DNA of 39,844 bases from a virus. Location of the stretch: the IMG/VR virus record IMGVR_UViG_3300008954_000112, positions 1 to 39,844 of that record; one strand, 5' to 3'. Both the position numbers and the translations under genes were made by a program. This document shows positions 6,001 through 21,875 of this stretch, one piece after another. Within the stretch, counting starts at the first letter, position 1; each line of letters opens with the position of its first letter. The notes beneath the pieces are model-generated. The model searched no databases. It was given only the letters and a program-made list of their open reading frames with translations, and was not told where the DNA came from.

Positions 6001-6237
6001 AAATATAGTTATAATTGGCCCTATGACTACTTTACTATGTTGGAAATGATTCAGGTTGAAGCAGGCGTTGATATTTTTGAGAACAGTATCATGCAAACTC
6101 CGCGCACCACATCTTCTCAGGATGAGATTTCATCCTCGGAAACTCAACGGCAAATTACAGGAGTGAAATTAAGTAGTTCACAGGACATAGCAGGCGCACC
6201 AACCCAGCATTCATTTGGGACAGACGAGGATAGATAA
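1..6237 (+). CDS. Giant virion protein with LamG-like domain (5' partial)
   Basis: The reading frame is open from the first base, so the true start lies outside the window; 2,078 residues are visible before TAA. The first residues include an acidic D-x-D-x-D-G loop like a calcium-binding thrombospondin type-3 repeat. Residues about 143-453 look like a concanavalin A/LamG jelly-roll: an opening SVWVKPE strand and a closing G-x-M-x-x-F-x-M-W-x-x-x-L-S-x-x-D-I pattern, both typical of that fold. The remaining 1,600 residues match no family I can name, but the C-terminal 300 residues resemble large structural proteins of marine myoviruses. The gene is followed, with one-base overlaps, by other virion genes. 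I infer a tail-tip, baseplate or host-binding role, with the lectin-like domain possibly binding surface glycans. Structural role is fairly sure; exact position in the virion is not. Confidence 0.8.
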   Translation, partial: GYKGTDDDADGYGYDDPNLAATTDGAADTTLPPVYREGNSFSDWKAVLPFSHDANDTNPSVTSLKFNLNGATDEYMHGQITLWDKYTTSTANDTDIYGVAPFAPMTEQTKYDTLRVPSDAAAGQLAQARKELYSSAVDTTQGTPMTVSVWVKPELTTCTPDHARYDGNPVGLYVFGQYEFDGNGVSDDNQKKPRHWRRDLLSADGRFALFSNFPAPNSLLGKYSTGMGLTFVINKEGKDIGPHELGSKCRRASGGGYDDDVSGEDIYHFFRRDQRPCEGRSEDPCSSADDNWMPATLLEGEWSNVALQILPAEGSKNPKIKLTLTDRLTRPKGNESDNVLYEQVLYGIHRSALTNGSYKKRAYSTVPVGKSAAWGATYGNVEPTKFGEALGGYCYDYKLGKGIFADKFDDLALRHRRTRNLKRGGKERYWYFHGEMAEFSMWAGVLSAEDIDWIRQEPRNLLEGYLNGEVLGGYTNATNFNNYWGSGSPSEILSDNLINSTGGSNVGYTQAGVTISSEASRSTCKLTTWHRLGIKPTINITESCEDWDDEFFNSYVHTDTIQFFDAIVEDHDAVSDTLRRRLRFKVNALKKLIPYRGFYPQDRTLQLANLFAQKMTDSITGADESVLRREQAMQAAMQPFFAPGILYNSIKAGVAVDWPAFTNATGLEPVYPNSQCSLPYYNEDVQGLSDDDEMHTNGPEVRLSSIAPNWYNPRANPSSSTEGLLLEYEGFKSSDDVSADEIESQQHNELERLYNNQPKFFQCMGDSDWSDCPESANGYIIRQEPNMRIPFEGLVSIDSVLPKASDTYESLQDTIDEGDFKYVDLEISGWDCEGVEITLTQPIAKLADRHNPDTYPDGDEWTDNFSMTSVSITIGDDDREMSGDEWDVAVNFQRPPKGFKLPSFDQDGTSEDAEAGAWNHGEAQISLDAMNEEIAVKLCHHINSRHDIHYVAVPGALRKWAYGTAFDWEESGGGTTNDYVALNFPACYPEVFDIDRADIAPHADAQDAGTYDGAYTMNLLGNPDLWRTNGSKSPPPVGKQHNGTWRIRLVYVGPPKIKLDLKNVETAHTSIASGNNRFNVEADQIKELGMRPYNGIGYTAPDDGTIKDYTWERSDDYSTEYDSSDSYHYNSVKAGESGFINSQMRCASPANIDLDATYTDDPNLRIFNDGIGDGAKLNWKTLHLINPFRVSGGDGTYEGFALDSDSFDSGTNLPSTWLRKGSIEPYSFFDGGGVQATEMLNNVMGDTCMVSLTRHLGTLTLCEWIDGWGWKGEAKYSVDTELGVRYVNLRGVTTKGNVNDRTRTDHIRGELMGWSEGAWEDAGKEMEEDRTVGVEESLEMRYSGGVAVMEESAKPQQGAFGLYGGYSAALITGVRVTPKPHQIYLMTPEYYIGHGNGSDGGESSTNWAGHWKNYCYPYFEYLGSNNDNRFEMAMHNFLAEVPNFFLRDGKLVSFSSKPEDEFKVMTAGRTYYMNVSMHQSENFTTVASPYSDINAIGRPSTIAFGNTGTSRLTMEGRYFGPAFQWKGVSEYKPNSENNTMERQMLRDPAQAPYVPPYLYGKQTARISFTPSVTKQFSVEEIFAGAKVENVSAETWARFTKCAQEDNGSLFYNPREILSSPAWTSRTTVSASMNLFGKSSIKQIEYTAQLSSLRDDLDESLQKFVPQTATDSSNDVWTIGTKWECPILNFYTAPALSALAMPALITNDGEFAPPNLPAMLSGSLQFGESGNGYVIKDSATEGENSGGGIWSSYGSIPSGATGVFVTVEESTISSATKDSQTNYGSLVDVCGFTTGKEKVGEISESKEISEAIVMIPFIDKTSETTAETVLVDGRHFFKINKTLFNMTKNNIEAGKPAVEAGKWAGVEYDVQETSISKMIRGMKKYNIPPKYDFVRYPMESSDNPFVMYIFEFTHKLNKHDLSDIWQGLPPRIALTAEHDSSTLLHDLSPIDFFEENTLPRHVRWMTFKIKKRAKENYYESTAQGADDARFEFKFESGKTPPKYSYNWPYDYFTMLEMIQVEAGVDIFENSIMQTPRTTSSQDEISSSETQRQITGVKLSSSQDIAGAPTQHSFGTDEDR

Positions 6238-7346
6238 TGTCATATTTTAATAAAAAAGAAGAAGTTATGCATATTGAATTGACCCAGTATGGTAAGCACT
6301 TGCTTTCCAAGGGTGACTTCAAGCCTGTATATTATTCTTTTTTTGATGATGACATTACCTACGACTGGGAATACACGGGAGACACAGCCGAAAAACAAAA
6401 CTATGCACAAGATAGAATCCTGAGCGAGACTCCATCGCCAAAGCCACAATATGTTTTTTCTGGGAGAGAGTCAAACATCACAGAAATAAACGAACTTATT
6501 CGCAATAACCGCACAGGGCTGAGGGATAAGAAAGCCCAACAAACGCCCGAGAAACACTATGCGTTATCTGCACCGCTGGGCAACTCCAGTGCTTCATCCG
6601 TTTACGCACCTTCTTGGTCGGCAAAAGCCTTGCGAGGCAGCTTCTCATCGTCTTTTCGTTACCAGCAGGCAGCACAGCCCACGTTGCACATCCCGCAACT
6701 GAATGTCGATGCCGTTAAATGCAGGAGCGAAATAAAGCTTGATGCCCCTCCAGACACTGAGGGTAGCGAGTTTGGGGGGATACACCAACCCGGAACATTC
6801 GGCTCAACTGGTACTTCAGGGGAATTGGGTTTGGCAACTCAGCAATATGAGGACGGTTCGTGGATTGAAGTCCTATCTGACCACCTTTTATTTGAAGTGG
6901 ATGAGCCAAATACAGATTGTTTAAAAGAAAATTTTGATATTGAAATCTTCCTTGTTGAAGATGTCGATATGACTGGGAAAGTGAATACGCCCGGTCGCCC
7001 AGCCGATGCACAGGGAAAGGTGGAAAAGCTTGTTCCATTAAAGTTTGGGAAAAGGTGGACAAACATTGTTAATGGGGTCTTGGTTGATGACCCTCCTGCA
7101 CCAGAGATTTATAATTACGACCCAACATTTGTTGAGCATTATTTTGACATCCGAGTCGATAAAGAGATTGAGCCACAGGTGTTGTGTGATGCCAATGTTG
7201 TGGCAGACGCTACCAAGTGTGGCGGGCTGGATGCAGGCTTCTTGAACTGCGCTGAACGCGGCGGCACCTCGACAACGGGCGGCATTTATGGAAGTTCAAC
7301 AGCCTCGGGTGACACTTCTCAGGGTCCATATGGAGATGACTGCTAA
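6237..7346 (+). CDS. Virion protein with attachment-like N-terminus
   Basis: This 369-residue protein starts at an ATG overlapping the previous stop (TAATG), with a GAGG site about ten bases upstream. Residues 12-42 read LTQYGKHLLSKG followed by FKPVYYSFFDDDITYD. That is the same plan as the N-terminus of the gene at 13654 (LTDTGRARLAKG, then a phenylalanine-rich stretch ending DDEIDY), and resembles the N-terminal domain by which many fibre proteins attach to a baseplate. The middle is rich in Ser, Pro and Ala; the C-terminus is Gly, Ser and Thr rich with several cysteines. No enzymatic motif is seen. It sits between two very large virion genes and is probably translated with them. I infer a baseplate or tail-associated structural protein; the exact role is unknown. 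Confidence 0.75.
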   Translation: MSYFNKKEEVMHIELTQYGKHLLSKGDFKPVYYSFFDDDITYDWEYTGDTAEKQNYAQDRILSETPSPKPQYVFSGRESNITEINELIRNNRTGLRDKKAQQTPEKHYALSAPLGNSSASSVYAPSWSAKALRGSFSSSFRYQQAAQPTLHIPQLNVDAVKCRSEIKLDAPPDTEGSEFGGIHQPGTFGSTGTSGELGLATQQYEDGSWIEVLSDHLLFEVDEPNTDCLKENFDIEIFLVEDVDMTGKVNTPGRPADAQGKVEKLVPLKFGKRWTNIVNGVLVDDPPAPEIYNYDPTFVEHYFDIRVDKEIEPQVLCDANVVADATKCGGLDAGFLNCAERGGTSTTGGIYGSSTASGDTSQGPYGDDC

Positions 7347-10300
7347 TGGCTATTTCACAAGAAAACTTATTGGGGATGTTAATTCCAGATATTTATATTG
7401 ATGGTATTACTTTGGAATCATCGGGAACCCCAGCAATTGAAGACAACCCTCATATCCAGCACGATAGAGAGGCACAGTCAATTGCTGATTTCAACGATGC
7501 GATGGACAATAGAACATTGCGCGTTAGTGTTGACCTTTGCCTTAAAGAACAGTTAGACAATACTCTGATTGGTTCGTGGTTTAGGGAACAAGAGTTTCAT
7601 AAGTATTTAAAAATTCAAGTGTTTCAAACGACACACAGCGGCTTAATTCAATTGTTTTCCCATAGTCAAAATATGATTAATTTTGCCACCACTGGCGTCA
7701 ATGAAGGTCACTTAACAGATGGCGAAATCGCCACGATTGTTGATACTTGTGGGAGCTATGATAACGCCGTCGCTGTCATGGAAAACCCAAACAAGTTTCA
7801 AGCAGCACTACTTTCAGTGTCGGCAGACGTTGTTGGCGACAACTCAGATTTAACACAGATTTCAAGTTCTGTTGACGAGAACGGCTATTCAATTCACGAC
7901 TTTACTTATCGAGCGGTCTTTGAATTAAGTGTGCTGGAGCCAGCAGACCTCGCTGTCTTTGCAGTTTCATATCTCGACCTTGCCGCAATGAAAGATGATT
8001 ATGATTTGGAATTTAATGTTGGCACGCTTGACCAGCAGAATGGAAAGGTTGTTTCGGAGATTGCCATTAAACGCAGCAGCATTGTGTCAACTGCAAACGT
8101 CTGGGTTACTCCTAATGGAGAATACTGGACAGGACCAGTTCACCGCTCGGGCACTTACTCTTGGGCTACTGGCAGCACGACATCTAGTTCCTCGCAGAAA
8201 TTAACCAAGCGCACGGTTCCCAATGACATTATTCAAGACTTCCGCGATGTAGCAGAGATTATGAAATACTCTTTGGATGCTGATATAAAAACAGCGATGA
8301 GCGATTTCGACAAGAACAAGTTTTGTGGCAAAGACAGACCATATATGGACAGAAAGTATTTGTACTTCTCCGACATTTGGCTGTCCAGAGATACAAGCGG
8401 CACTGCCCGTTTTATGTTTGCGTTTGACAAGAAAGAATTTTTAGCAAAGAACTCGGTATATGGTCACATGTTAGAACGGGCTATGGCATCGAATCGTAAT
8501 GCTATCTTGGACTCTGCTAACGTGCGAAAGATGACCCTCTTGAGAAGAAGGGTAAAGAGCATCCAGACTCTAAATAAGCTGGGTTCGCCCTATACTGGTG
8601 AGATTTTATTTGACAAAAATGAGCCTTATGTTAGTATTGCAATGACCGCCGAGAGCGGCGACAACTGGCTCACTGAGAGAAACACTCCCGCAGGCTCGCT
8701 AAGACAATCTGATTTAGTAACTTCTGATGGTTTACAAGGATATGGCATACAATATTATACTGGGCAAGACAAGGACATGCAATTCAAAACAGACGGGGAG
8801 TATCAGTACGGTGTTCGCATCGAAGTTGAAGACGGCATTCAAGAATACCTCCGTGACTGGACGAAGAAATTGCTTTTGGCGAAGGAAGATTTAAGCCTTT
8901 ACCTTGAACATTCGATGAAGCTGGGCATGACAAAATATTTACAAGAAGTGAGCGACCCTCATATCGACCACTCTGCCGAGAGACAAGCATCTACCTTGGA
9001 AAACTCGGGACACTATGACCCTTTAAAAAATAGATTTACCGCAAGGTTCGCAACCTTCATGGATGCCCAGTATGCCACACCAAGTTCCCCGTTCCATCAA
9101 AAGGAACCTTGGATGTGGGCTTTCTTATATTTTGAGGCGGTGATAATAATTTCTCAGGAAGCGGAATCTGCGGTGTTGTCAAGCAATCTTAATATTCCCG
9201 AACGGCTTGCAACGCTCATCTCCCCCACCACTGGCACCCCGAAGGGTATCATGGCTGTTATGAACTTGTTTGATATTTTGATTTCAAAGTATCAGAACCT
9301 GACTGGCGATGACTATCGCAATAGGGGCAGAACAAGTATGACCCCAATTCCTTCAAGTGCTGGAAGTGTTCAGCCATCACCATCGAGCATTACATCGGGC
9401 GAAAACATGCCGGGTGTTATTCTAAAGTGTGAAAATTGGTTCTTTAATAATATCTTTGATTCCGGCGCTGGAAGGACAAGCGGGCTTGATTACCTAACAA
9501 ACTTGCAGTCGAACAATCCATCTGGAGTAGCAAACCAAACCCAACAGACAGTAAACACTCAACAGGTGATGGCGAAGCATGAGTATGCCGATATTGTGTT
9601 TGGCAATGCTCAAACAAGAGGGCTAAAGATGGTTGACGGTGGGTATTGGACGCAGCGGATTCAAACGGAGACTGGGAAATTTTACCAAGATACCAACGCG
9701 CCTACTGGCGTTAGGATGGGTGGCATGGCTCTGGGCAGCGGCGGCACACTGGCAGACGCCAGCCACGGCTTCCTTTCGCCATCGGCACTCATCGCAAATG
9801 AGCAGGCGTATTCAATGCAGACAGATGCAGATTCTGACTATTACATTGAAGCTGAGGCTGCACTAATCTCTGCCAATGAGAACCAATTTCCAACAATGCC
9901 CGATAAGTCTTCTGACACAAATCAGTCTCAGAGTGCAAAAGCATACCAGTCTAGTATGGCGAATGTCTGGGCAGATTACAATATGACAATTATGCCAGCG
10001 GGCTATGCTTTGCCAACTCCGCTTTATCAAAGCCAGATGACTGATGACGCAGAACTAACACAGTGTGAAACTCAGCAGCTACAGGCTGTTGACCCATTTC
10101 CAGCGTGGACGATGGACGAGGATGGGAATATTATTACAGTGGGCGGTCATCAGACCGAAGAACCCATGGGCACTGTTAACTCGGATTATACAGACTTCTT
10201 CGCTAAGATGGCACCCGCACTGGCGGGGGATTCAGTTTTTGCAGGCAACATGGCGGGAGCAATGAGCAGTTCTACTTCTACTTCTGATGCTCTTTCTACG

Positions 10301-10912
10301 AGCAGCAAGGGGAATACCTTTTCGATGATGAGGGCTGACCAAGCGGTTGCAGCGTCTGTTGCCGTATCGAATGGCATATCTTCAGGCTCCACCGCATCAG
10401 AGGTCTACGATGCTACTCCAAACCAAGTTAAGTCTCTCATACTCGCACAGGTAAATCCCGGTCTTATCAAGCTTAATCCACAGCCAAACAATTGGGTCGA
10501 AGCGCCCGAGTTTAACATGAATTATCAATTCATCTCGATGGTAGAAAGGTTTGATGGGTGGGAAACCACGACACCAGCCTATCAAGACCAGACGGTTAAG
10601 GTCGCGGCGTTGCCGTCGATTAAAAGACCAAAGTGGGTTACGCTAACGGCAGATTATTATTCATCCATTCAAGGTCAAGAAATCTTGTGTAGACTTAAAG
10701 AGTACAGTTGCGAGCAGCTTGGAATTACTCGTCCCGAGGGCATTGATGCCCCAACATACGATGCATACTTTATTTTGACGCCATTTGAGCGTTCGCCATC
10801 AAATGAGGCGAACAATACAATTATTTTGATGGAACAAGAAGTGGCTCGGAGATTTGAAAGGTCTTTGCATGGCGCTAGTCAATATTCATCTACTAACGAA
10901 ATTCAATTTTAG
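7346..10912 (+). CDS. Large virion structural protein, 1,188 aa
   Basis: The start overlaps the preceding stop as TAATG, with GGAG ten bases upstream. The 1,188-residue product has no signal peptide, membrane segment or catalytic motif that I can recognise. Residues about 250-290 and 660-700 are Ser/Thr/Gly-rich linkers, and about 960-1040 is a long Ala/Ser/Thr-rich stretch, which suggests several folded domains joined by flexible connectors. The C-terminal 150 residues are again ordered in composition. Size, composition and position between other virion genes indicate a tail or baseplate component, possibly one needing an exact copy number in a baseplate hub or wedge. I cannot align it by eye with a T4 baseplate protein, so no symbol is given. 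Confidence 0.75.
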   Translation: MAISQENLLGMLIPDIYIDGITLESSGTPAIEDNPHIQHDREAQSIADFNDAMDNRTLRVSVDLCLKEQLDNTLIGSWFREQEFHKYLKIQVFQTTHSGLIQLFSHSQNMINFATTGVNEGHLTDGEIATIVDTCGSYDNAVAVMENPNKFQAALLSVSADVVGDNSDLTQISSSVDENGYSIHDFTYRAVFELSVLEPADLAVFAVSYLDLAAMKDDYDLEFNVGTLDQQNGKVVSEIAIKRSSIVSTANVWVTPNGEYWTGPVHRSGTYSWATGSTTSSSSQKLTKRTVPNDIIQDFRDVAEIMKYSLDADIKTAMSDFDKNKFCGKDRPYMDRKYLYFSDIWLSRDTSGTARFMFAFDKKEFLAKNSVYGHMLERAMASNRNAILDSANVRKMTLLRRRVKSIQTLNKLGSPYTGEILFDKNEPYVSIAMTAESGDNWLTERNTPAGSLRQSDLVTSDGLQGYGIQYYTGQDKDMQFKTDGEYQYGVRIEVEDGIQEYLRDWTKKLLLAKEDLSLYLEHSMKLGMTKYLQEVSDPHIDHSAERQASTLENSGHYDPLKNRFTARFATFMDAQYATPSSPFHQKEPWMWAFLYFEAVIIISQEAESAVLSSNLNIPERLATLISPTTGTPKGIMAVMNLFDILISKYQNLTGDDYRNRGRTSMTPIPSSAGSVQPSPSSITSGENMPGVILKCENWFFNNIFDSGAGRTSGLDYLTNLQSNNPSGVANQTQQTVNTQQVMAKHEYADIVFGNAQTRGLKMVDGGYWTQRIQTETGKFYQDTNAPTGVRMGGMALGSGGTLADASHGFLSPSALIANEQAYSMQTDADSDYYIEAEAALISANENQFPTMPDKSSDTNQSQSAKAYQSSMANVWADYNMTIMPAGYALPTPLYQSQMTDDAELTQCETQQLQAVDPFPAWTMDEDGNIITVGGHQTEEPMGTVNSDYTDFFAKMAPALAGDSVFAGNMAGAMSSSTSTSDALSTSSKGNTFSMMRADQAVAASVAVSNGISSGSTASEVYDATPNQVKSLILAQVNPGLIKLNPQPNNWVEAPEFNMNYQFISMVERFDGWETTTPAYQDQTVKVAALPSIKRPKWVTLTADYYSSIQGQEILCRLKEYSCEQLGITRPEGIDAPTYDAYFILTPFERSPSNEANNTIILMEQEVARRFERSLHGASQYSSTNEIQF

Positions 10913-10944
10913 TCTAATTATATGCAGCGAAGAAGGGAAATGCA

Positions 10945-13590
10945 ATGACAACAAAAGAAAAAATCATTGATGCTATTATTAACTTAAACAATATGAATAG
11001 TGTTGAGTATTTGCAGAGTTTGCGCCGCGCCGTCGAAGTTGCAACGGATACAACAGTTCGCCCTGCCTATAGGTCGCCTCAAATTGGCAAGACTTCTGTG
11101 TTTATGCTTTCTCCTGATGTTGTTGATAATGTCTTTCAGTATGGGAAATATTTAGAAGCCTCGGGCAATCGCTACGCTGCGTTGCCCAACATAACTGATA
11201 AGCTGCGGGCATCGGCAGGCTTATATTGGACTGATAAAATAACTCAATTGGGCATTGACTCTAATACAAAGAATGAAATGGGTTACATGAATAATATTCA
11301 CCCTACCATAACTCATACGGCAGTCCCGCTGAAGATGCACTTCTCCACCTTGGCACCTGCCGAAGAAGATGAACTTGGTCGAACAGTAGAATGGGTTTTG
11401 CTTGAAGCTAACAACGGCTTTGCGCCCATCTTTGACCCCAACAGTTCCGGCGGCTACGACGTTGTTGGCTCTGACGTAAACTATTTTAGTGCTGAAAAGT
11501 TTGTCAAGCACATGACTGTGGGCTATGACGATACTAGGTTAGCGGGCACGTTGACCGACTACGGCATGAGCGCCATACAGCTACCCTCCAAGTCCGATAT
11601 TGATGAGCAATATGGCGATGCGACATTCTCTTATGCAGATATTCACGGCGATTACAACTATCTCGATAGAAGATACGAAAGCACCATTGCTAGTAATGCA
11701 GTTAAGTCGAATACGCTCCCCAACATGTATGTCTTCTTCGCCTATCAGGATTCTGAAGACCCCAACCCTGCATTTAAGAAGCTGCTAAGTTTAAACAATA
11801 AAATTGATTTAACAAACCATCAAGATATGTTCTCGCTTAATTCAGCAAATCCACAGGTGCGCGTCACACCGTCCGAGAAATACTTTTCTAAATGGACAAG
11901 GGCTTACTCTAACGCTGTGGCAGACGCCGACGTGTTTCATTTGAATCGAAGTTACCAGAACATTCTATTTGCTGCCGAAGACTTGGCAAAGTTGACGCAG
12001 TATGAGGCACACAAGGAAATGTTTCCAATGTGGATGCATGTGGAATTTACGACAGATAAGATGACTGAGTTTGCAGAAACTCTCAAAGATTCTCAACTAA
12101 TGGGCATATTACAAACAAGGTTGTTTGATGCCATAAAAAACAACACACTGCCACATGTCAAGACGTTTGAAGCACGCGCAGTCCCGCTCAATTTAACCAC
12201 CGCTCAAGGCGTTGCATCTCCCGAAAAGAAGCCAATGCTGAAGCTTGTTTATGATAACAATAAGAGAAGGGTGTTTGATTTGAGCAATTGGATAGATACT
12301 GTTGATACCGATAGCGTTGGAGACAGCACGAACTTGGGGCTGGACACGTTGTACTCTACGTTTTTGGGAACATATAAGTTTGCCGATGCCATTTCCAATC
12401 ATCCAAAATATGATTTCTTCAAGAGCCTGATGGCAATTATTTTGAAAGGCAAAATAAAGAAGCTTCTTAAAAAGCACATGAGAACGGTGCAGGAGGTTTT
12501 TGAGGGACAGCCTGCCTATCATGAGACAGTGCTTTACAAGGTTTCAAAATATGCGGGAGCAAACACAAATGGTCAGCCCCTTCAAAGCTTTTACATTCCC
12601 AATTCAAATGATTTGGATGTGTTCAGATATATGGACACTCAAGTAAAATATGATAAGCAGTACACCTATTCAGTCACGGCATATGAACTTGTCGTTGGAA
12701 ATAAGTACAAGTATGAAAACCTCATAACAAAGGTTCAGTACGGAAAATGGGCGGCAGTACAAGTTATTAATGAGCCTTCTTTGAGGTTGATGGAGGTTCC
12801 AGTGTATGTCCATACAAATCGCGTCCTCGACAACCCTCCAATCCACCCCGAGGTCGAATTTGTGCCATACAAGGGCATCAATAATAAGATTAAAATCTTG
12901 GTCAATAGTGGAGTCGGTCGATACGATATCCCGTATAAAATCATTGAGTCCGAAGAACAGATACAGGTGCAGAAGCACAAGAAGGCACAGAACAAGAAGC
13001 ATCTTGATAATACGCTGATGTATGAAACGGATGACTATCCCGCTTTCTTTGAAGTCCGCAGAATAGGCAGACACCCGAAGTCGTTTAGTGATTTCGCCGG
13101 TAAGCGCACTAAACTTGTAAGCACAACACTTAAAAATTCAGATATGATTTCAGCAGGCATCGGAATCGTTGATAAAATCAAGCCCAATAGAAAGTATTAT
13201 TATTGCATAAGGGCAATCGACAATCATGGGCACATTTCGTACCCATCGCCTATTTATGAAGTAGAGATGGTCGATGACGCTGGTTCAATTTATCCGATGG
13301 TTCGGGTGGTAGAGTTCGCACCACGGTTTGAAAGTCAACAGTCAATTGGTGGAAGACGATATGTCCATATTAAGCCAGCAATGCCCCAAATGCTTGTTAA
13401 TGAAGAAGCATCGGGCTTGGTAGAGGTTGGGACTGTTGAACATTTGGAAAAATTAAAATTAAGTATTTCGGAGGAACCCTTGTGGGGCAAGAAGTTTAAA
13501 ATCAGATTGACTTCAAAATCAACTGGACGTAAAATGGATTTTAATATCTCGTTTGAACACGAACATTTGAAACTGAAGAATAGAGATTAA
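10945..13590 (+). CDS. Virion protein with fibronectin-III-like domain
   Basis: An 881-residue protein preceded by an AAGGGA ribosome site ten bases from the ATG. The N-terminal 680 residues belong to no family I recognise. Residues about 695-775 resemble a fibronectin type-III sandwich: a strand beginning AFFEVRRIG, a central KPNRKYYYCIRAID strand with the typical Y-x-Y-x-x-R-A-x-D pattern, then a G-H-x-S-x-P-S turn and a final strand. Such domains are common on phage tail and baseplate proteins and are thought to make weak contacts with cell surfaces. A short C-terminal beta-rich region follows. This is the last gene before a gap holding tandem copies of a promoter-like motif, so it may end a transcription unit, although I see no terminator hairpin there. 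Confidence 0.75.
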   Translation: MTTKEKIIDAIINLNNMNSVEYLQSLRRAVEVATDTTVRPAYRSPQIGKTSVFMLSPDVVDNVFQYGKYLEASGNRYAALPNITDKLRASAGLYWTDKITQLGIDSNTKNEMGYMNNIHPTITHTAVPLKMHFSTLAPAEEDELGRTVEWVLLEANNGFAPIFDPNSSGGYDVVGSDVNYFSAEKFVKHMTVGYDDTRLAGTLTDYGMSAIQLPSKSDIDEQYGDATFSYADIHGDYNYLDRRYESTIASNAVKSNTLPNMYVFFAYQDSEDPNPAFKKLLSLNNKIDLTNHQDMFSLNSANPQVRVTPSEKYFSKWTRAYSNAVADADVFHLNRSYQNILFAAEDLAKLTQYEAHKEMFPMWMHVEFTTDKMTEFAETLKDSQLMGILQTRLFDAIKNNTLPHVKTFEARAVPLNLTTAQGVASPEKKPMLKLVYDNNKRRVFDLSNWIDTVDTDSVGDSTNLGLDTLYSTFLGTYKFADAISNHPKYDFFKSLMAIILKGKIKKLLKKHMRTVQEVFEGQPAYHETVLYKVSKYAGANTNGQPLQSFYIPNSNDLDVFRYMDTQVKYDKQYTYSVTAYELVVGNKYKYENLITKVQYGKWAAVQVINEPSLRLMEVPVYVHTNRVLDNPPIHPEVEFVPYKGINNKIKILVNSGVGRYDIPYKIIESEEQIQVQKHKKAQNKKHLDNTLMYETDDYPAFFEVRRIGRHPKSFSDFAGKRTKLVSTTLKNSDMISAGIGIVDKIKPNRKYYYCIRAIDNHGHISYPSPIYEVEMVDDAGSIYPMVRVVEFAPRFESQQSIGGRRYVHIKPAMPQMLVNEEASGLVEVGTVEHLEKLKLSISEEPLWGKKFKIRLTSKSTGRKMDFNISFEHEHLKLKNRD

Positions 13591-13607
13591 AGTTTTTGCC
13601 GTAGAGG

Positions 13608-13637
13608 GACTATTTATACAAAATGACTATTTATTTG
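13608..13637 (+). promoter_or_regulatory. Tandem ACTATTTAT motif, candidate late promoter
   Basis: GACTATTTAT occurs twice, at 13608 and 13625, 17 bases apart, in the 63-base gap upstream of the 13654 gene. The second copy is about 28 bases from the start codon, with a GGAGG ribosome site between. The same core occurs upstream of 21925 and 37208, and as a variant upstream of 33958. A phage-specific late promoter is the simplest reading, but it has not been tested. TATTTATA at 13611 is also the reverse complement of the T4 late element TATAAATA; since no genes run leftward, I favour + strand use. Confidence 0.5.
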
Positions 13638-13653
13638 CGGAGGGAAACAATAG

Positions 13654-14616
13654 ATGGCTTTCTTAGATAACTCGGGCGACATTATTTTGGATGCTGTCCT
13701 AACTGACACAGGCAGGGCACGGCTCGCCAAGGGCGATGGAACATTCAAAATCACCAAGTTTGCGCTTGGCGACGATGAAATTGATTACAGCCTGTATAAC
13801 AAGGCGCACGCAAGTGGCTCTGCATATTATGATTTAGAAATTATGCAAACCCCGCTTCTGGAGGCGTTCACAAACAACACTTCTTCCATGAAGCACAAGC
13901 TTATCTCGCTTCCGAGAACAAATCTCCTATTTCTTCCCGAAGTTAAGCTGAACACCGTATTTGATGCGAACACAAGCATGGTAACGGGCGTTTCAGAACT
14001 AACAGGCACATTCGCCTGTGCCGTGGATAAGAAAACAGAAGATACTTTGATTGCAGCCGATGAGTTGTCAGATGGAAAGGGAATCCTGAAGGGAGAGAAC
14101 TCATCATCAGGCGCACGGGTTCGTGTTGACCAAGGACTGGACACGACACAAATTCCACCCACAATGACAATTGACCCTGACTTGGTAGAGACAAGCTATA
14201 TTGTTCAAATCGACAACAGGTTCGGAAGAATTATTGGCGCAGATTCCAACACGCCCGCAAACGTATCATATATTGATGATGACAACATTGCAAGCTATTA
14301 CTTCTCTTTTGGGTCGGAGACAGAATATGTCTCAAGCAACGATGAGACTAATGTTAGTGTAAATCAAGTTATTGACGGACCACGCGGTACATTCTTGCAG
14401 TTTAAGATTCAGTCATCGCTGGAATTGAATACCAGCACTCATTTGTTTGAAACACTGGGCGGCGGCACTACGGTTGCACCGGCAACATCACAAGACCCCG
14501 ACCCATCATATTATTACATTGACACACACGTTAGAGTTACTGGAGCAACAACAGGAAGGTCGGTAGATATTCCCGTCCGCTTCATGAAATGCAAAACAAG
14601 CTGTGTGACAACATAA
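13654..14616 (+). CDS. Tail/baseplate protein with fibre-attachment-like N-terminus
   Basis: The 320-residue product starts at an ATG with a strong GCGGAGGGA site. Its first 50 residues (DAVLTDTGRARLAKG, then FKITKFALGDDEIDY) have the plan of phage tail-fibre N-terminal attachment domains, where an L-T-x-x-G motif precedes an A-L-G-D strand. The gene at 6237 opens in a similar way. The rest is beta-rich, ending in a Cys-x-x-x-Cys pair near the C-terminus. The gene begins a run of three closely spaced structural genes (13654, 14632, 15916) downstream of the tandem promoter-like motif. From memory this N-terminus is widespread in marine myoviruses and is annotated only as structural. I infer a baseplate or tail protein; no enzyme function is suggested. 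Confidence 0.75.
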   Translation: MAFLDNSGDIILDAVLTDTGRARLAKGDGTFKITKFALGDDEIDYSLYNKAHASGSAYYDLEIMQTPLLEAFTNNTSSMKHKLISLPRTNLLFLPEVKLNTVFDANTSMVTGVSELTGTFACAVDKKTEDTLIAADELSDGKGILKGENSSSGARVRVDQGLDTTQIPPTMTIDPDLVETSYIVQIDNRFGRIIGADSNTPANVSYIDDDNIASYYFSFGSETEYVSSNDETNVSVNQVIDGPRGTFLQFKIQSSLELNTSTHLFETLGGGTTVAPATSQDPDPSYYYIDTHVRVTGATTGRSVDIPVRFMKCKTSCVTT

Positions 14617-14631
14617 GGGGATTAATAAATA

Positions 14632-15900
14632 ATGGCAAGTACATATAAAACATTTTTGAATGATGACGTGGTGACGGCACGAACGCTGTTACACGAAGCC
14701 ATTCCAATTACGGGTTCAATCGTTTATGGAACCTACGGCTATGACAACGCCACTGAAGCGCATGTCAAGAAGTTTGCTCATGCAATGTTCCAGTCTGTCT
14801 ATGATTATCCATATTTGAGTTCGTCTGCTAACCACATTTTTGATATTGCATACGGTCATCACAAGGATGACTACAATGCCCTCGGTTCGGAGAGTTTGGC
14901 GAACACATATCATTCCAAGAGAAAGAACATCTATAACCAGATGGCACAGATTTTGGTTGGTCACGATACAAGCGGCGACATCCAGAAGTTTGATGCCGAT
15001 GGCGACATCATTGCGGGCGGTGCCAAGTATACATCTTGCATCTTCCTAAACTTTGCTCGGCTCTTAAACAAAGACGAAATCAAGAAGGGTTCGTTTGAAT
15101 TGACAATGGGCGTCCACGCTTCTTACGAGGGCAGTGCCGCCGGGACAAACCACAGCACTGGCACTACCCAAGGTGAAGCCGCTGCGATGCACACTCAGTC
15201 TCTAACAATTAAAGATGACGGTGCTTCCACCGACTATCGCGTTAACTCTCCAGCAGGCGAGTACGGTATCCTGAAGATTACAGCAGACACCACATCAAGC
15301 AACTATTCTACTGATTATGCCACCGAAGCAAGGAAACGATGCGGATTAATTTATTATCAGGCAGGCGTCGTTGTGCTGGACTCAAACATTTTTGTTAAAT
15401 ATGCTGGCTCTGACAATAACAGCCTATTTGATGGGCAAGCCCATGCGAGAAAAACAGGGAAGCTTGCTGGAACGGATACGGTCGCCCATGTAGATAACGG
15501 CTCCTGTGAAGTCTTTGTTGCTTCCTCGGGCGGTAGACAGTTTACAATTGACGGAGCAATCCAGCAATCCACCTCGGTGTCCATGACAAATGACGCACTA
15601 CTAACCAGCATCAGAAAGAGGATTGCAAAAGTTTGTTTCAACAACACAACAGAGTTGAACTCAACAATTTATTTCTGCCGCGTGAACCATAATGATTTCA
15701 ATTACAGTTCTAATCCCACTTATCTGTCCTCAAGCCAGATTCGTGTTAAAAACACTCAGTCGGACGCTCCAGTTTCATATGTTACGACAGTTGGTTTGTA
15801 TTCATCTGATAACGAGATGCTTGCGGTAGCTAAACTCTCCGAGCCGCTACGCAAAGACCCGACGAATGACATTACGCTGCGCGTGAGGCTGGACTATTAA
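14632..15900 (+). CDS. Tail-associated virion protein, paralogue A
   Basis: A 422-residue protein, ATG start with an AAGGGG site upstream. It is a diverged paralogue of the next gene: both have a D/S-x-IKKG strand near the middle, an N-P-T-Y motif about 60 residues from the C-terminus, and a matching C-terminal block of the form V-G-[IL]-Y, then A-K, then P, ending in an alternating strand with a final D-[FY]. No catalytic residues or membrane segments are seen. The pair lies between a fibre-attachment-like gene and the recombination island. Tandem duplication followed by divergence is common for proteins forming hetero-oligomeric rings or wedges, so a baseplate role is a reasonable inference, but it is only an inference. 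Confidence 0.75.
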   Translation: MASTYKTFLNDDVVTARTLLHEAIPITGSIVYGTYGYDNATEAHVKKFAHAMFQSVYDYPYLSSSANHIFDIAYGHHKDDYNALGSESLANTYHSKRKNIYNQMAQILVGHDTSGDIQKFDADGDIIAGGAKYTSCIFLNFARLLNKDEIKKGSFELTMGVHASYEGSAAGTNHSTGTTQGEAAAMHTQSLTIKDDGASTDYRVNSPAGEYGILKITADTTSSNYSTDYATEARKRCGLIYYQAGVVVLDSNIFVKYAGSDNNSLFDGQAHARKTGKLAGTDTVAHVDNGSCEVFVASSGGRQFTIDGAIQQSTSVSMTNDALLTSIRKRIAKVCFNNTTELNSTIYFCRVNHNDFNYSSNPTYLSSSQIRVKNTQSDAPVSYVTTVGLYSSDNEMLAVAKLSEPLRKDPTNDITLRVRLDY

Positions 15901-15915
15901 AAGGGGGATACATTC

Positions 15916-17274
15916 ATGCCCTTATACAAGTTCAGCACGAATGACGTATTCAGAAACAGAGTAAAGACACATCCAAGGACAAAATTTCTGATTAACAACG
16001 GGACTATCGTTTATAACGGTGAGATTCCCGCTACTGGTAAGCAGGATAGCATCCCAAAGAAGATAACGCACGCGCCTTCTGGATATCTTAGTCTCTACGA
16101 AATCAACGTCGATAAAAACGAAACTGCTCACACGTTTGATGCGGCTACTGGCAACGGCGTGACGGCAATGGCTTATCCGTTCATTACGAAGGCTGGCTCA
16201 CTGACCGCTTTCAAGACAGTATCCGTTTCATCATTCCAGTCGTTTTCTTATGGCGACATCATGTCCAGCAGCTACCCTCTAACGTCCTCTGTTGCTGTTG
16301 AACACCACAGGGCTGATGGTGAGGTGCCAACGAATTGCACGCAGTACAGACGGCATATAAACTCTCTTAGGAACACCTTTGAGCATTATGCCTATATGTC
16401 TCCCCACTACGCATGGGAATCAGCCTCATCAGCTTACGGTACTTGGTCGAAGGACACACAGGAGATGGCGCTCGTGAGCGTGCCCTCAATTTTTTATGGT
16501 TCCTCAATCAAGAAGGGCACAGTTAAATTAAATTTCTATATTACAGGTAGTTTGGTTGGGCAGCTTGAAGATTCAAACAGGAACGGGGAGTTGATACAGG
16601 TTTTGCCGCAAGACGCTAACGAAGGTAAGGTCGCAGGCGTTGTTTTGTATAACGAGGGCATCATGGCGCTTACCGGCAGTTGGGACTTGGACGCCTCTTA
16701 TAAAGATTATTTTATGGCTTGCCCAGATTGCTTAACCGCACACCCCGATGGCTCGGATGGCGATAGCGACCCCGACCCAGTTGCTCCAACATGGACGTTG
16801 TGGGGGAGCCAAGGCAATCCAGACGATGATTCGTGCAACGAAGTACTAGACACGGCAGGCTCCCATTATCCAATTGATAAGGACTCGGGACCGTACAGTG
16901 TGACGCTTTGCCCCTCTGCTTCATGGGGGGTGGAATTCCAAGGGACATCTTATGTGTCTGTCTTGACGATGATGGCACACGCCCCAATGGGACAGCTAAA
17001 CCATTCTAACAATCCGACCTATGTTAAGCGTGGTCAGGCAGAGCAGCCATTGCTCGACGGCGCACAATTTGTAGAAAAAGATGAAAAAGCACTTACCAAC
17101 ATTGTAAAATCAGTGTATACTAACTACAGTGAAAGTTTTGAGAAGACCACTTACATTTCTAAGGTGGGGATTTATGATGAGGATAGAAACTTGATTGCAA
17201 TTGCTAAGGTCGCAACTCCTGTTAAGAAAACGGAAGACCGAGAATATACATTTAAAATTAAAATGGACTTTTAA
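15916..17274 (+). CDS. Tail-associated virion protein, paralogue B
   Basis: A 452-residue protein with a strong AGGGGG ribosome site 15 bases after the previous stop. Residues about 190-210 (PSIFYGSSIKKGTVKLNF) and 240-255 (VVLYNEGIMALTGSWDL) form conserved-looking beta strands. The C-terminal 60 residues match those of paralogue A. Unlike A, it carries an Asp/Pro-rich insert at about residues 273-310, with several cysteines (a C-x-x-C pair and later single cysteines) that could bind a metal or form a small knot. From memory, the central block is strongly conserved in marine myovirus structural proteins. It ends in TAATG, sharing bases with the start of the resolvase gene, so resolvase translation may depend on ribosomes that finish this gene. 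Confidence 0.75.
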   Translation: MPLYKFSTNDVFRNRVKTHPRTKFLINNGTIVYNGEIPATGKQDSIPKKITHAPSGYLSLYEINVDKNETAHTFDAATGNGVTAMAYPFITKAGSLTAFKTVSVSSFQSFSYGDIMSSSYPLTSSVAVEHHRADGEVPTNCTQYRRHINSLRNTFEHYAYMSPHYAWESASSAYGTWSKDTQEMALVSVPSIFYGSSIKKGTVKLNFYITGSLVGQLEDSNRNGELIQVLPQDANEGKVAGVVLYNEGIMALTGSWDLDASYKDYFMACPDCLTAHPDGSDGDSDPDPVAPTWTLWGSQGNPDDDSCNEVLDTAGSHYPIDKDSGPYSVTLCPSASWGVEFQGTSYVSVLTMMAHAPMGQLNHSNNPTYVKRGQAEQPLLDGAQFVEKDEKALTNIVKSVYTNYSESFEKTTYISKVGIYDEDRNLIAIAKVATPVKKTEDREYTFKIKMDF

Positions 17275-17810
17275 TGCTGCTTGGATTGGATATTTCCACT
17301 TCCATCACTGGCGCAACTGTACTGGATGAGAGCGGGAACATTGTCTTCTGTGAATCGTGGGATACGAGGAATAAAAATCATTTCCCTACGTTGTACCACA
17401 AGGCAGATTTTGTAAAAAATAAATTAAAAACACTTGACAAGCGGTTCAATATAGGTTATATTTATATAGAACAATCCTTACAGAGTTTTAGGAGTGGGTT
17501 TTCTTCTGCGAAGACGCTCTCAACTTTGTCGAGGTTTAATGGGATTGTGTCATGGACTTGCTGGGACATGTTCAAGGTAGAGCCTCAGATGCTCGCTGCA
17601 TCCTCAGCGAGAAAGAAAGTGGGTGTACCAATTAAGCGAGGTGACAATGCAAAAGAAAAAGTTTTGAATTTTTTACTTGACAACGAGCCAGAATTTGTTA
17701 TAATGTATACAAAGTATGGAAACCCAAAGCCCGAATCGTATGACAGGGCTGATAGTATCATCATCGCAAGAGCGGGGTATGAGTGTATAAAGAAAAGCTT
17801 ACCATCCTAA
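17274..17810 (+). CDS. ruvC-like: RuvC-type Holliday junction resolvase
   Basis: The 178-residue product has the RNase H-like fold signature of RuvC endonucleases, which cut four-way DNA junctions by paired metal-dependent nicks. The opening strand is LLGLDIS with D6; YIYIEQS supplies E66; the C-terminal helix carries D157-R-A-D160. This D/E/DxxD set matches the catalytic four of E. coli RuvC (D7, E66, D138, D141), and the length is close to the usual 170-190. In a phage the likely job is resolving recombination intermediates and branched DNA before packaging. No good ribosome site precedes the ATG, which overlaps the upstream stop as TAATG, so translational coupling is likely. The gene overlaps the primase by 28 bases and contains two sigma70-like promoter sequences. 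Confidence 0.85.
   Translation: MLLGLDISTSITGATVLDESGNIVFCESWDTRNKNHFPTLYHKADFVKNKLKTLDKRFNIGYIYIEQSLQSFRSGFSSAKTLSTLSRFNGIVSWTCWDMFKVEPQMLAASSARKKVGVPIKRGDNAKEKVLNFLLDNEPEFVIMYTKYGNPKPESYDRADSIIIARAGYECIKKSLPS
17434..17462 (+). promoter_or_regulatory. Sigma70-like promoter inside resolvase gene (P1)
   Basis: TTGACA at 17434-17439 and TATATT at 17457-17462 are separated by 17 bases, matching 11 of 12 consensus positions with the optimal spacer. It points toward the primase and Mre11-Rad50 genes. It lies in coding sequence, so it could be chance, but the agreement is high and a second such site follows 215 bases later. Confidence 0.5.
17677..17704 (+). promoter_or_regulatory. Consensus sigma70 promoter inside resolvase gene (P2)
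   Basis: A perfect TTGACA at 17677-17682 and a perfect TATAAT at 17699-17704 are separated by 16 bases. Transcription would start near 17711, giving the primase messenger a leader of about 70 bases. The match is to the host housekeeping promoter, not to the AT-rich motif seen upstream of virion genes, which suggests early expression of the primase and the Mre11-Rad50 fusion. Confidence 0.6.
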
Positions 17811-18715
17811 CCGATGCCCTCGGAGAGAGTTACCGCTCCGGGGATGAACACTTGTTTTTCTGTCCAAAATGTAATCACCACAAGAAAAAGATGTCGGTGA
17901 ATATTAATAAGGATAAGTTCAAGTGTTGGGTTTGTGATTATTATGGAGCATCTATACGGCGGCTCATCCGGCGCTATGGGAATTATGCCCACCAAAAGAA
18001 ATGGTCACAATACGAACCAGAATTGGAGATTAGTGGTTTTGAAGAAGCGTTCTTCGGCACTGGAGAAGAAGAAGTGGTCGAAACCCTTTCTCTGCCTCCT
18101 GAGTTTAAGCCGCTTGCGACCGTCGCCACGTCTTTGGCAGCAAAGCCTGCCCGAAGATACTTGATGGAGCGTGGCATTACCAGAGAAGATATATTGCGAT
18201 GGAAGATTGGTTATTGCCCATCGGGGGAATACGGTGGTCGAGTTGTCATACCGTCATTCAACTGCGATGGGAAGGTCAGTTACTTTGTGGGTCGCACCTA
18301 TGATGGAAACTGGAAGAAGTACATGAATCCGTCTGTTCAAAGAAATCTTGTCTTTAATGAGTTGTATGTTGATTGGCGAAGCGACCTCTCAATTGTAGAG
18401 GGAGTGTTCGACGCTATCGTTGCTGGCAACGCCGTGCCCATCTTGGGCTCTTCGCTCAGGGAAGATTCAAAGCTTATTAAGAATGTGGTGGAGAACGACA
18501 CGCCAGTTTACATCGCATTAGACCCAGACGCAGAGAAAAAAGCACTAAAATTAATAAAAAAGTTGTTGACATTTGACATTGAGTTGTATAAAGTAGACAT
18601 TAACCCATACAGTGATGTTGGGGATATGTCGAAACAGGAATACCAAAAGCGAAAGGATTCCGCTGTTTTGATGACGAACGAGTCGTTCCTCGTCAAAGCA
18701 ATCGCATCTATATAA
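17783..18715 (+). CDS. DnaG-type DNA primase (zinc finger plus TOPRIM)
   Basis: This makes the short RNA primers for lagging-strand synthesis at the phage fork, in the role of T4 gp61. The 310-residue product starts with GTG, overlapping the resolvase by 28 bases, with AGCGGGG just upstream. Residues 27-51 form a CHC2-like zinc finger (C27-P-K-C30, two His, C48-W-V-C51). A TOPRIM domain follows, with E206 in IVEG and D247-P-D249 in ALDPDAE, the residues that bind catalytic magnesium. It lacks the long C-terminal helicase-binding region of cellular DnaG and the helicase of T7 gp4, so it should need a separate helicase, not found in this window. The next gene follows after ten bases. Confidence 0.85.
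   Translation: MYKEKLTILTDALGESYRSGDEHLFFCPKCNHHKKKMSVNINKDKFKCWVCDYYGASIRRLIRRYGNYAHQKKWSQYEPELEISGFEEAFFGTGEEEVVETLSLPPEFKPLATVATSLAAKPARRYLMERGITREDILRWKIGYCPSGEYGGRVVIPSFNCDGKVSYFVGRTYDGNWKKYMNPSVQRNLVFNELYVDWRSDLSIVEGVFDAIVAGNAVPILGSSLREDSKLIKNVVENDTPVYIALDPDAEKKALKLIKKLLTFDIELYKVDINPYSDVGDMSKQEYQKRKDSAVLMTNESFLVKAIASI
18566..18592 (+). promoter_or_regulatory. Weak sigma70-like promoter upstream of Mre11-Rad50 fusion
   Basis: TTGACA at 18566-18571 and TATAAA at 18587-18592 match 11 of 12 consensus positions, but the spacer is only 15 bases, which is below the usual 16-18. It lies within the primase gene, about 134 bases before the fusion gene. It may be chance; its interest comes from lying in the same short region as P1 and P2. 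Confidence 0.25.
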
Positions 18716-18725
18716 AGGGAGAAGC

Positions 18726-21700
18726 ATGAAGTTCGCACACATAGCGGATACTCATATCCGAAATCTGAAGTTTCATTATGAATATCGAAAAGTCTTTGAG
18801 AGGTTGTATGAAATACTCAAGGAACAGGAAGTAGATTATATCGTCCACTGCGGTGATATTGCACACACTAAGACACAAATTTCACCAGAGTTTGTTGAGA
18901 TGGCGTCCAACTTCTTTACTAGTCTGGCAACCATCGCACCGACGTATATCATTCTCGGGAACCATGATGGCAATTTGAAGAACAGCAGCCGTCAGGACGC
19001 ACTGTCTCCGATTATTAATGCCTTGGATAATCCCAACCTGCACTTGCTTAAAGGCGCGGGAGAGACACTTGTGGGCAACGATTATTGCCTGAATGTGTTG
19101 AGCGTTTTTGATGAGGACAATTGGGTAAAGCCCTCTGATGATAGCAAGATTAACATTGCTTTGTATCATGGCTCAGTATCTGGCGTCGAAACGGATTCGG
19201 GCTGGGTGATGCAACACGGAGAACACCCTATTGATATTTTTGAGGGGCACGATTTCGCATTCCTTGGAGACATTCACAAGACTAATCAAATCCTTGACAC
19301 CGAAGGTCGTGTCCGGTATTGCGGTTCTACTGTACAGCAGAACCATGGAGAGTCGAATGACAAGGGGTTCTTGATTTGGGACATTCAGAACAAAGATGAT
19401 TTTGAAGTTGAACATTATGTTCTAGAAAATCCAAAGCCCTTCGTTACAATTAATTTAACCCCCAAGGGAAGAATCCCCCGTGGCACGATTGTACCTGCTG
19501 GTGCAAGGCTGCGCTTGGTGGCTAACTACGGCATCCCTCTTGACCGCCTCAAGCGGGCTGTGGACGTTGCCAAGAAGCGTTTCAAGCCTGAGTCCATTAC
19601 ATTCCTCAACAGGACAGCAGGCGACCGTGGAAGCGTCGATATGGACGGTGACCTCCAAAAAGAAAACCTCCGCGATATCGCTGTGCAAGAAGGGTTGATT
19701 AAAGAATTTTTGAGTGATTACGAGATTGAAGATGAGGTTCTTGAGCAGGTTTATAAGATTAATCAAAGGTACAATTCTATTGTAGAATCTCAAGAAGAAG
19801 TACAGAGAAATGTAAACTGGACGCTGAAGACGCTGGAGTTTGACAACCTTTTCAACTACGGGGAAGGCAACAAGGTTGAGTTTGAACACTTGGATGGCAT
19901 CGTTGGAATTTTTGGGAAGAATTTTTCTGGGAAGTCAAGTATTATTGACAGCCTCTTGTGGACTCTTTTCAATTCTACTTCCAAACGTAATCGAAAGAGT
20001 TTGGATATTATTAATCAGAATCGCGAGTACGGTCGAGGACTCGTAACAATTGAAATTGGTGGAAAGCAGTTCACTATTGAGCGACGTGCAGAGAAGTATA
20101 TTAAGAAACTCCGTGGGGAAGAATCGGTCGAAGCGAAGACAACACTAGAATTCTGGGTTGAAGATACGGTGACGGGAGAAAAGTTGTCACTGAATGGCGA
20201 GACTCGGAACAACACGGATAAGAACATTAGAAAGTATTTCGGTACACTTGAGGACTTTCTTTTGACTTCCATGTCATCCCAGCTTGATGCACTGGCATTC
20301 ATTGGTGAAGGTTCATCAAGGCGTAAGGAAATCCTTGCTAAGTTTCTTGACTTGGAATTCTTTGAGTTGAAGTATCGTCTTTGCAAGGATTCCGCTGCCG
20401 ATATGAAGGGTGCCATCAAACGTCTGGAAGAAATTGATTTTGAGGAAGGCATTAGCGAAGTAACAGGGCGGCTTGAAGCGACTCTTACCGACACTGCTGC
20501 TCAACAGTCCCGCTGTGAGGTGCTGAAGGGCGAGATAGATAGTGCAGCGGAGCAACATCGAACTCTTGTTGCAACAATCGAAGCAACGCCAACTAAGATG
20601 ATAGACATTGAAGAAGTCCGTTCCATGCTTACCAAGACCGAAGAACAGATAAAGAAGAAGGTAGACCGAAATTATATTTTGGGCAAGAACCTTAAAACGA
20701 ATATCGAAACCCTTACAAAAATTGAGAGTTTTGAACGCCAGTTTGATGTGGACTCTTATCAGGAGAAGCAGAAAAAGATTGGGGAATATCGTGAAGACTT
20801 GGACGAGTTAGACCGCCTTATTGTCAAAGCCGAAACTAAGAAGACGGTTGAGGAAAAGAAGGTTGAATTGCTCAACCAAGTGCCCTGCGGCGAAGAATTT
20901 AGCCACTGCAAGTTCATCCGCGATGCTTATGCTGCTTTAGAAAACCTTGGCATCACCAAGGATAGGATAGAGGGGCTATCTGATAAGAAGTCCGAGGCTA
21001 CTAAGGGGCTTGATGTGCTTGCTCCCGAGGTGGTGGAGGGTCATTTAGATAAATATCATCGGGTGTTGGAGAAGCGGTCGGCTCTTATAACAGAAAATGC
21101 CAAGTTTGAGGTTGAAAATGCCAAAAATAAGACAAAGATTATTAAACTGAAGACCGATGCTTCGACATTACAGGAAGAAATCACTCTTTACGAAGAAAAT
21201 AGGGAAGCGATAGAGAGCCTAGAGTCATTAATCCTTCAAAAGTCAGAACTGGAATCGGACATAAGCGATAAAAAGGTTGAAATTGAAGAATGTCAGACCG
21301 CTGTACATGAAATGTACCGTACACACGGGTTTTTACAGCAAAAGTTGGAGAATTTTATGACCCAACAGCAAGAATTAGAGAATTTGAGGGGGCAATACTC
21401 GGCAAGCGACTTGTTCATGAGTTGTATGCACTCAAACGGCATCTCCTTGGACGTTATCAAGCGAGAACTGCCAAGAATCAACGGGGAAATTGCCAAAGTG
21501 CTTGCAAATGTTGTAGATTTTGAAGTTTTCATGGAAAATGACGAAAAAAGGCTTGACATTCTGATTAAACACCCTAAGTTTGACCCACGCCCTCTGGAGA
21601 TGGGTTCTGGAGCAGAAAAAACGATAGCTGCGATGGCAATTCGCCTTGCATTGCTCAATGTGTCTTCAATGCCAAAGGGTGATGTGTTTATTCTTGATGA

Positions 21701-21875
21701 ACCGGGCACCGCGCTTGATGAAGAAAACATGGAAGGCTTTGTTCGTATCCTCGACGTTGTTAGAGCATACTATAAAACTGTTCTGCTGATTTCCCACTTG
21801 GATAGCTTGAAAGATAGCGTTGACACGCAGATTTCTATTGACAAGAAATCGAAGATGGCATATGTGAATCAGTAA
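18726..21875 (+). CDS. sbcDC-like (gp47-gp46): Fused Mre11-Rad50 (SbcD-SbcC; T4 gp47-gp46) nuclease/ATPase
   Basis: One uninterrupted 1,049-residue frame carries both halves of the DNA end-processing complex. Residues 1-340 are an Mre11/SbcD metallophosphoesterase: D8-x-H10, G43-D44, G78-N-H80-D81, H148 and G-D-x-H184. Residues 370-1049 are a Rad50/SbcC ATPase: Walker A at 397-405 (GKNFSGKSS), long coiled coils either side of a hook-like C721-x6-C728, an MGSGAEK signature in place of LSGGE, and Walker B at 987-992 (VFILDE). In T4 these are separate proteins that resect double-strand ends for recombination-dependent replication. T4 gene order, 47 before 46, is kept here. AGGGAG precedes the ATG. 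The hook is atypical, because the usual zinc hook is C-x-x-C. No stop or reinitiation site is seen between the halves. Confidence 0.9.
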   Translation: MKFAHIADTHIRNLKFHYEYRKVFERLYEILKEQEVDYIVHCGDIAHTKTQISPEFVEMASNFFTSLATIAPTYIILGNHDGNLKNSSRQDALSPIINALDNPNLHLLKGAGETLVGNDYCLNVLSVFDEDNWVKPSDDSKINIALYHGSVSGVETDSGWVMQHGEHPIDIFEGHDFAFLGDIHKTNQILDTEGRVRYCGSTVQQNHGESNDKGFLIWDIQNKDDFEVEHYVLENPKPFVTINLTPKGRIPRGTIVPAGARLRLVANYGIPLDRLKRAVDVAKKRFKPESITFLNRTAGDRGSVDMDGDLQKENLRDIAVQEGLIKEFLSDYEIEDEVLEQVYKINQRYNSIVESQEEVQRNVNWTLKTLEFDNLFNYGEGNKVEFEHLDGIVGIFGKNFSGKSSIIDSLLWTLFNSTSKRNRKSLDIINQNREYGRGLVTIEIGGKQFTIERRAEKYIKKLRGEESVEAKTTLEFWVEDTVTGEKLSLNGETRNNTDKNIRKYFGTLEDFLLTSMSSQLDALAFIGEGSSRRKEILAKFLDLEFFELKYRLCKDSAADMKGAIKRLEEIDFEEGISEVTGRLEATLTDTAAQQSRCEVLKGEIDSAAEQHRTLVATIEATPTKMIDIEEVRSMLTKTEEQIKKKVDRNYILGKNLKTNIETLTKIESFERQFDVDSYQEKQKKIGEYREDLDELDRLIVKAETKKTVEEKKVELLNQVPCGEEFSHCKFIRDAYAALENLGITKDRIEGLSDKKSEATKGLDVLAPEVVEGHLDKYHRVLEKRSALITENAKFEVENAKNKTKIIKLKTDASTLQEEITLYEENREAIESLESLILQKSELESDISDKKVEIEECQTAVHEMYRTHGFLQQKLENFMTQQQELENLRGQYSASDLFMSCMHSNGISLDVIKRELPRINGEIAKVLANVVDFEVFMENDEKRLDILIKHPKFDPRPLEMGSGAEKTIAAMAIRLALLNVSSMPKGDVFILDEPGTALDEENMEGFVRILDVVRAYYKTVLLISHLDSLKDSVDTQISIDKKSKMAYVNQ

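Follow-up and report, generated by a model that had tools for sequence, protein, structure and literature searches.

The stretch of DNA analyzed here, 39,844 nt long and referred to below as the window, encodes a T4-like portal and terminase and comes from a marine tailed phage; it covers only part of the replication module. On its plus strand, positions 18726–21875 form one ATG-started open reading frame (ORF) of 1,049 codons, without an internal stop, in which an Mre11-type (SbcD) nuclease is joined to a Rad50-type (SbcC) ATPase. The fusion is genuine and intact. Pfam places Metallophos at residues 1–159 (5.6e-13), AAA_23 at 371–569 (1.1e-8) and SMC_N at 367–1040 (9.3e-11); PHROG places an SbcD family at 1–352 (2.5e-36) and an SbcC family at 207–1047 (1.9e-46). 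Matches of one chain to both SbcD and SbcC profiles are the mark by which Mre11/Rad50 fusions have been recognized before (PMC3175470). The initial annotation had described a single frame with both halves and no stop, nuclease first as in T4; the ORF and the domain matches of both halves bear out the one statement, and the positions of the domains the other.

Immediately upstream lies a gene for a DnaG-type primase (17783–18715, plus strand; PHROG 47, 2.1e-44) that matches gp21.95 of SPO1, primases of Staphylococcus and Listeria phages, and those of huge phage LR756508 and Microcystis phage Mel-JY01. A phmmer-detectable copy of this primase is found no more than 900 bp upstream in 81 of the 153 related loci with enough flank. 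Ahead of it, a weak match points to a RuvC-like resolvase (17274–17810, plus strand; PHROG 159, 9.2e-5). The remaining upstream DNA, from 55 to 17274, contains seven long frames (2060, 369, 1188, 881, 320, 422 and 452 aa) with no PHROG match, five of which (1188, 881, 320, 422 and 452 aa) were also run against Pfam and matched nothing. A DNA-level search for upstream genes in named phages gave no match, either.

The domains of the fused protein are all encoded on the plus strand. The nuclease and capping domains occupy residues 1–312 (18726–19661), and when the model of residues 1–302 is compared with known structures it aligns with Staphylococcus aureus SbcD (7dog: Z 24.5, 273 residues aligned, rmsd 3.6) and Thermotoga maritima Mre11 (3tho: Z 24.3). 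Next comes a predicted helix–loop–helix (HLH; residues 318–355, 19677–19790), the Rad50-binding element of Mre11, assigned from its position and its two predicted helices, and then a predicted linker between the halves (residues 356–363, 19791–19814). The N-terminal ATPase lobe of Rad50 (residues 364–543, 19815–20354), with Walker A at 19914–19940, is separated from the C-terminal lobe (residues 928–1049, 21507–21872), with the signature SGAE and Walker B at 21684–21701, by a predicted coiled coil (residues 544–927, 20355–21506). Modeled, the Rad50 part (365–1049) aligns with the head of Escherichia coli SbcC (7yzo_D: Z 30.8, 351 residues aligned, rmsd 3.3). The closest predicted fold in BFVD is a Tupanvirus repair protein (21% identity). 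Repair proteins of Harvfovirus, Yasminevirus and Catovirus and a protein of Terrestrivirus are also among the top matches, and the phage protein that comes next is from Tenacibaculum phage pT24.

The junction is shorter than it first appears. Two AlphaFold models were made, one of the full-length protein (mean pLDDT 82, with a pTM of 0.50 that makes the packing of head against nuclease unreliable) and one of residues 1–364 (pLDDT 84, pTM 0.76). In these models, the nuclease and capping domain runs to about residue 300, helices follow at 318–329 and 336–355/361, and the first Rad50 strand starts at 364. A linker of 30–60 residues had been proposed, but the two predicted helices occupy the place of the Rad50-binding HLH of Mre11, so that most of this region would be HLH—an identity that rests on helix prediction and position, because the structural alignments end near residue 302—and only about eight residues would be left. 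The protein thus appears to have kept the capping and HLH regions and to pass by a short linker into Rad50; for such fusions a linker of 9–12 residues was predicted from the T. maritima structure (PMC3175470). Nor does fusion fix the stoichiometry at 1:1, as had been suggested, since separate M2R2 complexes are 1:1 already; what it contributes is covalent pairing in cis, and co-translation.

The residues listed in the initial annotation for the nuclease—D8, H10, D44, N79, H80, D81, H148 and H184—are all present in the Mre11 half. That 'all Mre11 motifs' are present goes too far, however: the canonical G-H-x-H (H206/H208 in Pyrococcus furiosus) reads G-D182-I-H184 in the window, and has D in 149 of 149 members of its clade. 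The canonical set of metal ligands is incomplete in this one respect, D182 standing in for H206, and the others are kept. Because D182 replaces a metal-ligand histidine, the protein may depart from canonical Mre11 in its nuclease activity or in the metal that it prefers. The Walker A and B motifs claimed for the Rad50 half hold up: Walker A (GKNFSGKS), the signature, and Walker B with its D-loop (FILDEPGTALD) flank an antiparallel coiled coil, the hallmark of Rad50/SbcC. Among the 149 clade members, the catalytic sites of the nuclease half and the Walker A, Walker B and signature sites of the ATPase half are invariant or nearly so, where sequence reaches.

Relatives are plentiful. A first scan of IMG/VR found 128, the best 80 of which nearly all cover the whole query at 49–86% identity; a profile-based scan raised the number to at least 588 contigs, and the best 80 of these are full length or clipped by the contig end. 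Searches elsewhere were less productive: no fused relative was found among the cellular matches L085–L089, and none of the plasmid relatives was full-length. The window is a single uncurated virus contig, and two genes joined by an error of assembly or sequencing—a lost stop, or a frameshift—might have given the same picture. That chance is negligible, since the same full-length single frame occurs in 180 of 183 related loci, a count that takes in the window's own copy (L081) and one with an extra, duplicated tail (L166), and these independent contigs rule out an assembly join around the junction, as the initial annotation had advised checking. The length of the junction, too, is identical in 148 of 149 clade members, and codon-level purifying selection runs through it. 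Measured against the closest relative (L001, 86% identical), dN/dS is 0.027 for Mre11, 0.034 for HLH plus linker, and 0.022 and 0.013 for the two Rad50 lobes, although synonymous substitutions have nearly saturated. Both halves are under strong purifying selection, and the fused gene is conserved and probably functional.

The three exceptions among the 183 loci are L084, L091 and L112, and none of the 183 is broken at the Mre11/Rad50 boundary. L084, on a WOR-3 MAG scaffold, seems truncated, but its sequence gives way to a run of N, beyond which unrelated genes are joined to it; we reject it as a real truncated copy and regard it as an assembly gap. L091, from the 484-kb phage LR756508, is interrupted directly behind its GDIHK codons by an ORF (6665–7582) with matches to HNH endonucleases, and in L112 (3304–6544) the fused gene is in two pieces, split within the nuclease domain at the same site. 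An insertion at this metal-binding motif has the look of a homing event aimed at a conserved part of the active site; no Rfam intron family scored above threshold at the L091/L112 break. In L166, the duplicated tail repeats the ∼60 C-terminal residues of the fused protein and lies after the gene, at 8150–8359.

Some phage genes have internal starts, and the Rad50 half could in principle also be made on its own from such a start, giving a mixed complex with the fused protein. This is very improbable here: across residues 345–366 of the 149 members there is no conserved ATG, GTG or TTG, and even at the position where start codons are commonest, just 14 members have one. We reject a separate Rad50 from a junction start on these grounds.

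Fusions of this kind are not new, although the initial annotation had presented this one as such: essentially all relatives are fused, and such fusions have been in print since 2011. Yoshida, Claverie & Ogata described Mre11/Rad50 fusions in Mimivirus (R555), Bacillus phage 0305phi8-36, plasmids, bacteria and eukaryotes, together with R555-like genes on 249 ocean-metagenome scaffolds, some beside phage primases like those of SPO1 (gp21.95), Twort, G1 and A511; many of these metagenome genes were argued to be of phage origin (PMC3175470). R555, as described there, resembles the window protein in its domain order, retained HLH and short linker, and in two departures from canonical motifs, GDxxH for GDxxD and GDxH for GHxH (PMC3175470). 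It differs in size (1,351 aa), in its longer coil, and in its owner, a eukaryotic giant virus rather than a tailed phage. The ocean scaffolds share with the window the proximity of phage primase genes. With the same GDxxH and GDxH variants, the window gene probably belongs to the R555-like viral family. The assignment of its nuclease half to Mre11/SbcD rests on fold and profile, and R555, too, has D in place of the first H of GHxH.

A search of phage proteins for single SbcD–SbcC chains, as had been recommended, finds many, also in cultured phages, and those in deposited phages have gone unremarked. The AAA-domain protein of Mel-JY01 (PP395634; ∼30% identity) and the protein of LR756508 (∼29%) are full-length relatives with a primase directly or nearly directly upstream; that of huge phage LR756501 (21–25%) is also full-length, with a longer coil than the window protein. 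All three differ from it in having a CxxC hook, and the LR756508 copy in being interrupted by the HNH endonuclease ORF. The Rhizobium phage RHph_Y65 group, IME392, Ab1-TPeters, Vibrio phages Va2 and 1.031.O, Cobetia phage Carin-5 and Thermus phage phiLo have single chains as well, whose deposited labels name one subunit, or read 'hypothetical' or 'coil containing protein'. These fusions form a separate, well supported branch, with a SGGQ-type signature and a CxxC hook. Xanthomonas phage XacN1 has a single chain, too, but sits inside the T4/RaK2 branch beside split pairs from jumbo phages. A XacN1-type gene in Stenotrophomonas phage RAS14 (L196, 1444–4807) is in two overlapping frames, with the break inside the nuclease domain, which may be a sequencing error, a real break or frameshifting; the related phage CM1 matches in two pieces as well.

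How did the two genes come together? A tree of 28 fused proteins and eight split pairs places the window, Mel-JY01 and huge-phage groups together in a starred set whose 20 members are all fused, the Rhizobium/IME392/Vibrio/Thermus fusions in another, and fused XacN1 within the split T4/RaK2 branch. The starred branches force three changes between the fused and split states, so that within this sample of phages the two forms have been exchanged three times or more; as the tree is unrooted, three fusions and fewer fusions with some later splits would account for it alike. The position of XacN1 beside split jumbo-phage pairs suggests that its fusion was independent. Loss of an intergenic stop is a plausible route in this case, and easy to picture, because the split relatives of XacN1 have gaps of only 9–12 bp between the genes. 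For the window lineage, the same simple origin had been read from the gene order of T4, and it does not carry over: in T4, genes 46.2 and 46.1 intervene between 47 and 46, which are thus non-adjacent, and our search for a split sister of the window lineage found none.

We consider it likely, with a probability of about 85%, that the window encodes a single-chain Mre11–Rad50 (SbcDC) enzyme that belongs to the R555-like viral family, dimerizes with itself, and resects and tethers DNA ends for recombination-dependent replication and repair. Observed here are the architecture, the intact active-site and ATPase motifs, purifying selection, and, in near-full-length relatives, sole-copy status and a RecA-like gene; its dimeric form, nuclease activity and role in replication we infer. 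Five relatives of 186–204 kb are near-full-length, although IMG/VR does not certify these records as complete: the fused ORF is the sole AAA_23 gene in all five and the sole Metallophos gene in four, a RecA-family gene is present in all five, and a search of the five for separate partner genes found none, barring an extra short metallophosphatase in G003. Two copies of the protein would dimerize through their Mre11 halves and, with ATP bound, through their Rad50 halves, too, to form an (MR)2 clamp, in which each nuclease would be tethered to its own ATPase by the HLH and some eight residues. ATP-driven engagement of the Rad50 heads would gate the Mre11 active sites; DNA ends and hairpins would be bound and trimmed, exposing 3' single strands; and the coiled coil would bridge DNA ends, a bridging that, at an apex without CxxC, is only putative where a zinc hook is concerned. 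The exposed strands would then feed the RecA-like recombinase of the phage, and through it repair and recombination-dependent replication, much as with T4 gp46/47. T4 gp47/gp46 and E. coli SbcCD have folds and a likely mechanism in common with the window protein, but each is two separate polypeptides, and the T4 pair belongs to a replication gene cluster with the clamp and clamp loader downstream, whereas the window has a single chain beside a primase.

Alternatively, the fusion might have been repurposed, to tether DNA structurally, to degrade host DNA with little nuclease activity, or to act as a counter-defence factor. D182 and the very fast evolution of the apex and coil would suit such a change, but the remaining metal ligands are all retained, D occupies the same site in the Mre11 of T5-like phage PSTCR5 and in other fusion groups, and the gene is the sole copy in near-full-length relatives. 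We think repurposing unlikely, and favor the end-processing enzyme.

Single-chain Mre11–Rad50, sporadic in the reports of 2011, is fixed and apparently the only form in a large clade of marine phages—at least 588 contigs have a relative, and those examined are fused—and the window fusion illustrates well what is already known, being standard in its large virus group. At ∼120 kDa, with a short coil, it would lend itself to structural and single-molecule studies of communication between Mre11 and Rad50.

The fusion being known already, the most promising lead is the variability of the coil apex. In the window the apex is C721-x6-C728 (20886–20909, plus strand), with CX6C instead of the canonical CxxC zinc hook. 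Among 149 clade members, 115 have CX6-7C, 25 (about one in six) CxxC, five CxC and four something else, and well supported FastTree branches require the CX6C state to have switched 17 times or more. Tentatively, repeated switching among CX6C, CxxC and CxC could mean diversifying selection on hook compatibility—with the phage's own MR complexes as against foreign ones, met in the host or during co-infection—or exchange of apices, a reading that we hold to be possible but doubtful; pS is high throughout, so exchange looks the same as fast evolution. Two pairs of relatives, L036/L073 and L062/L079, have heads that are 95–97% identical and apices that are 25–55% identical.
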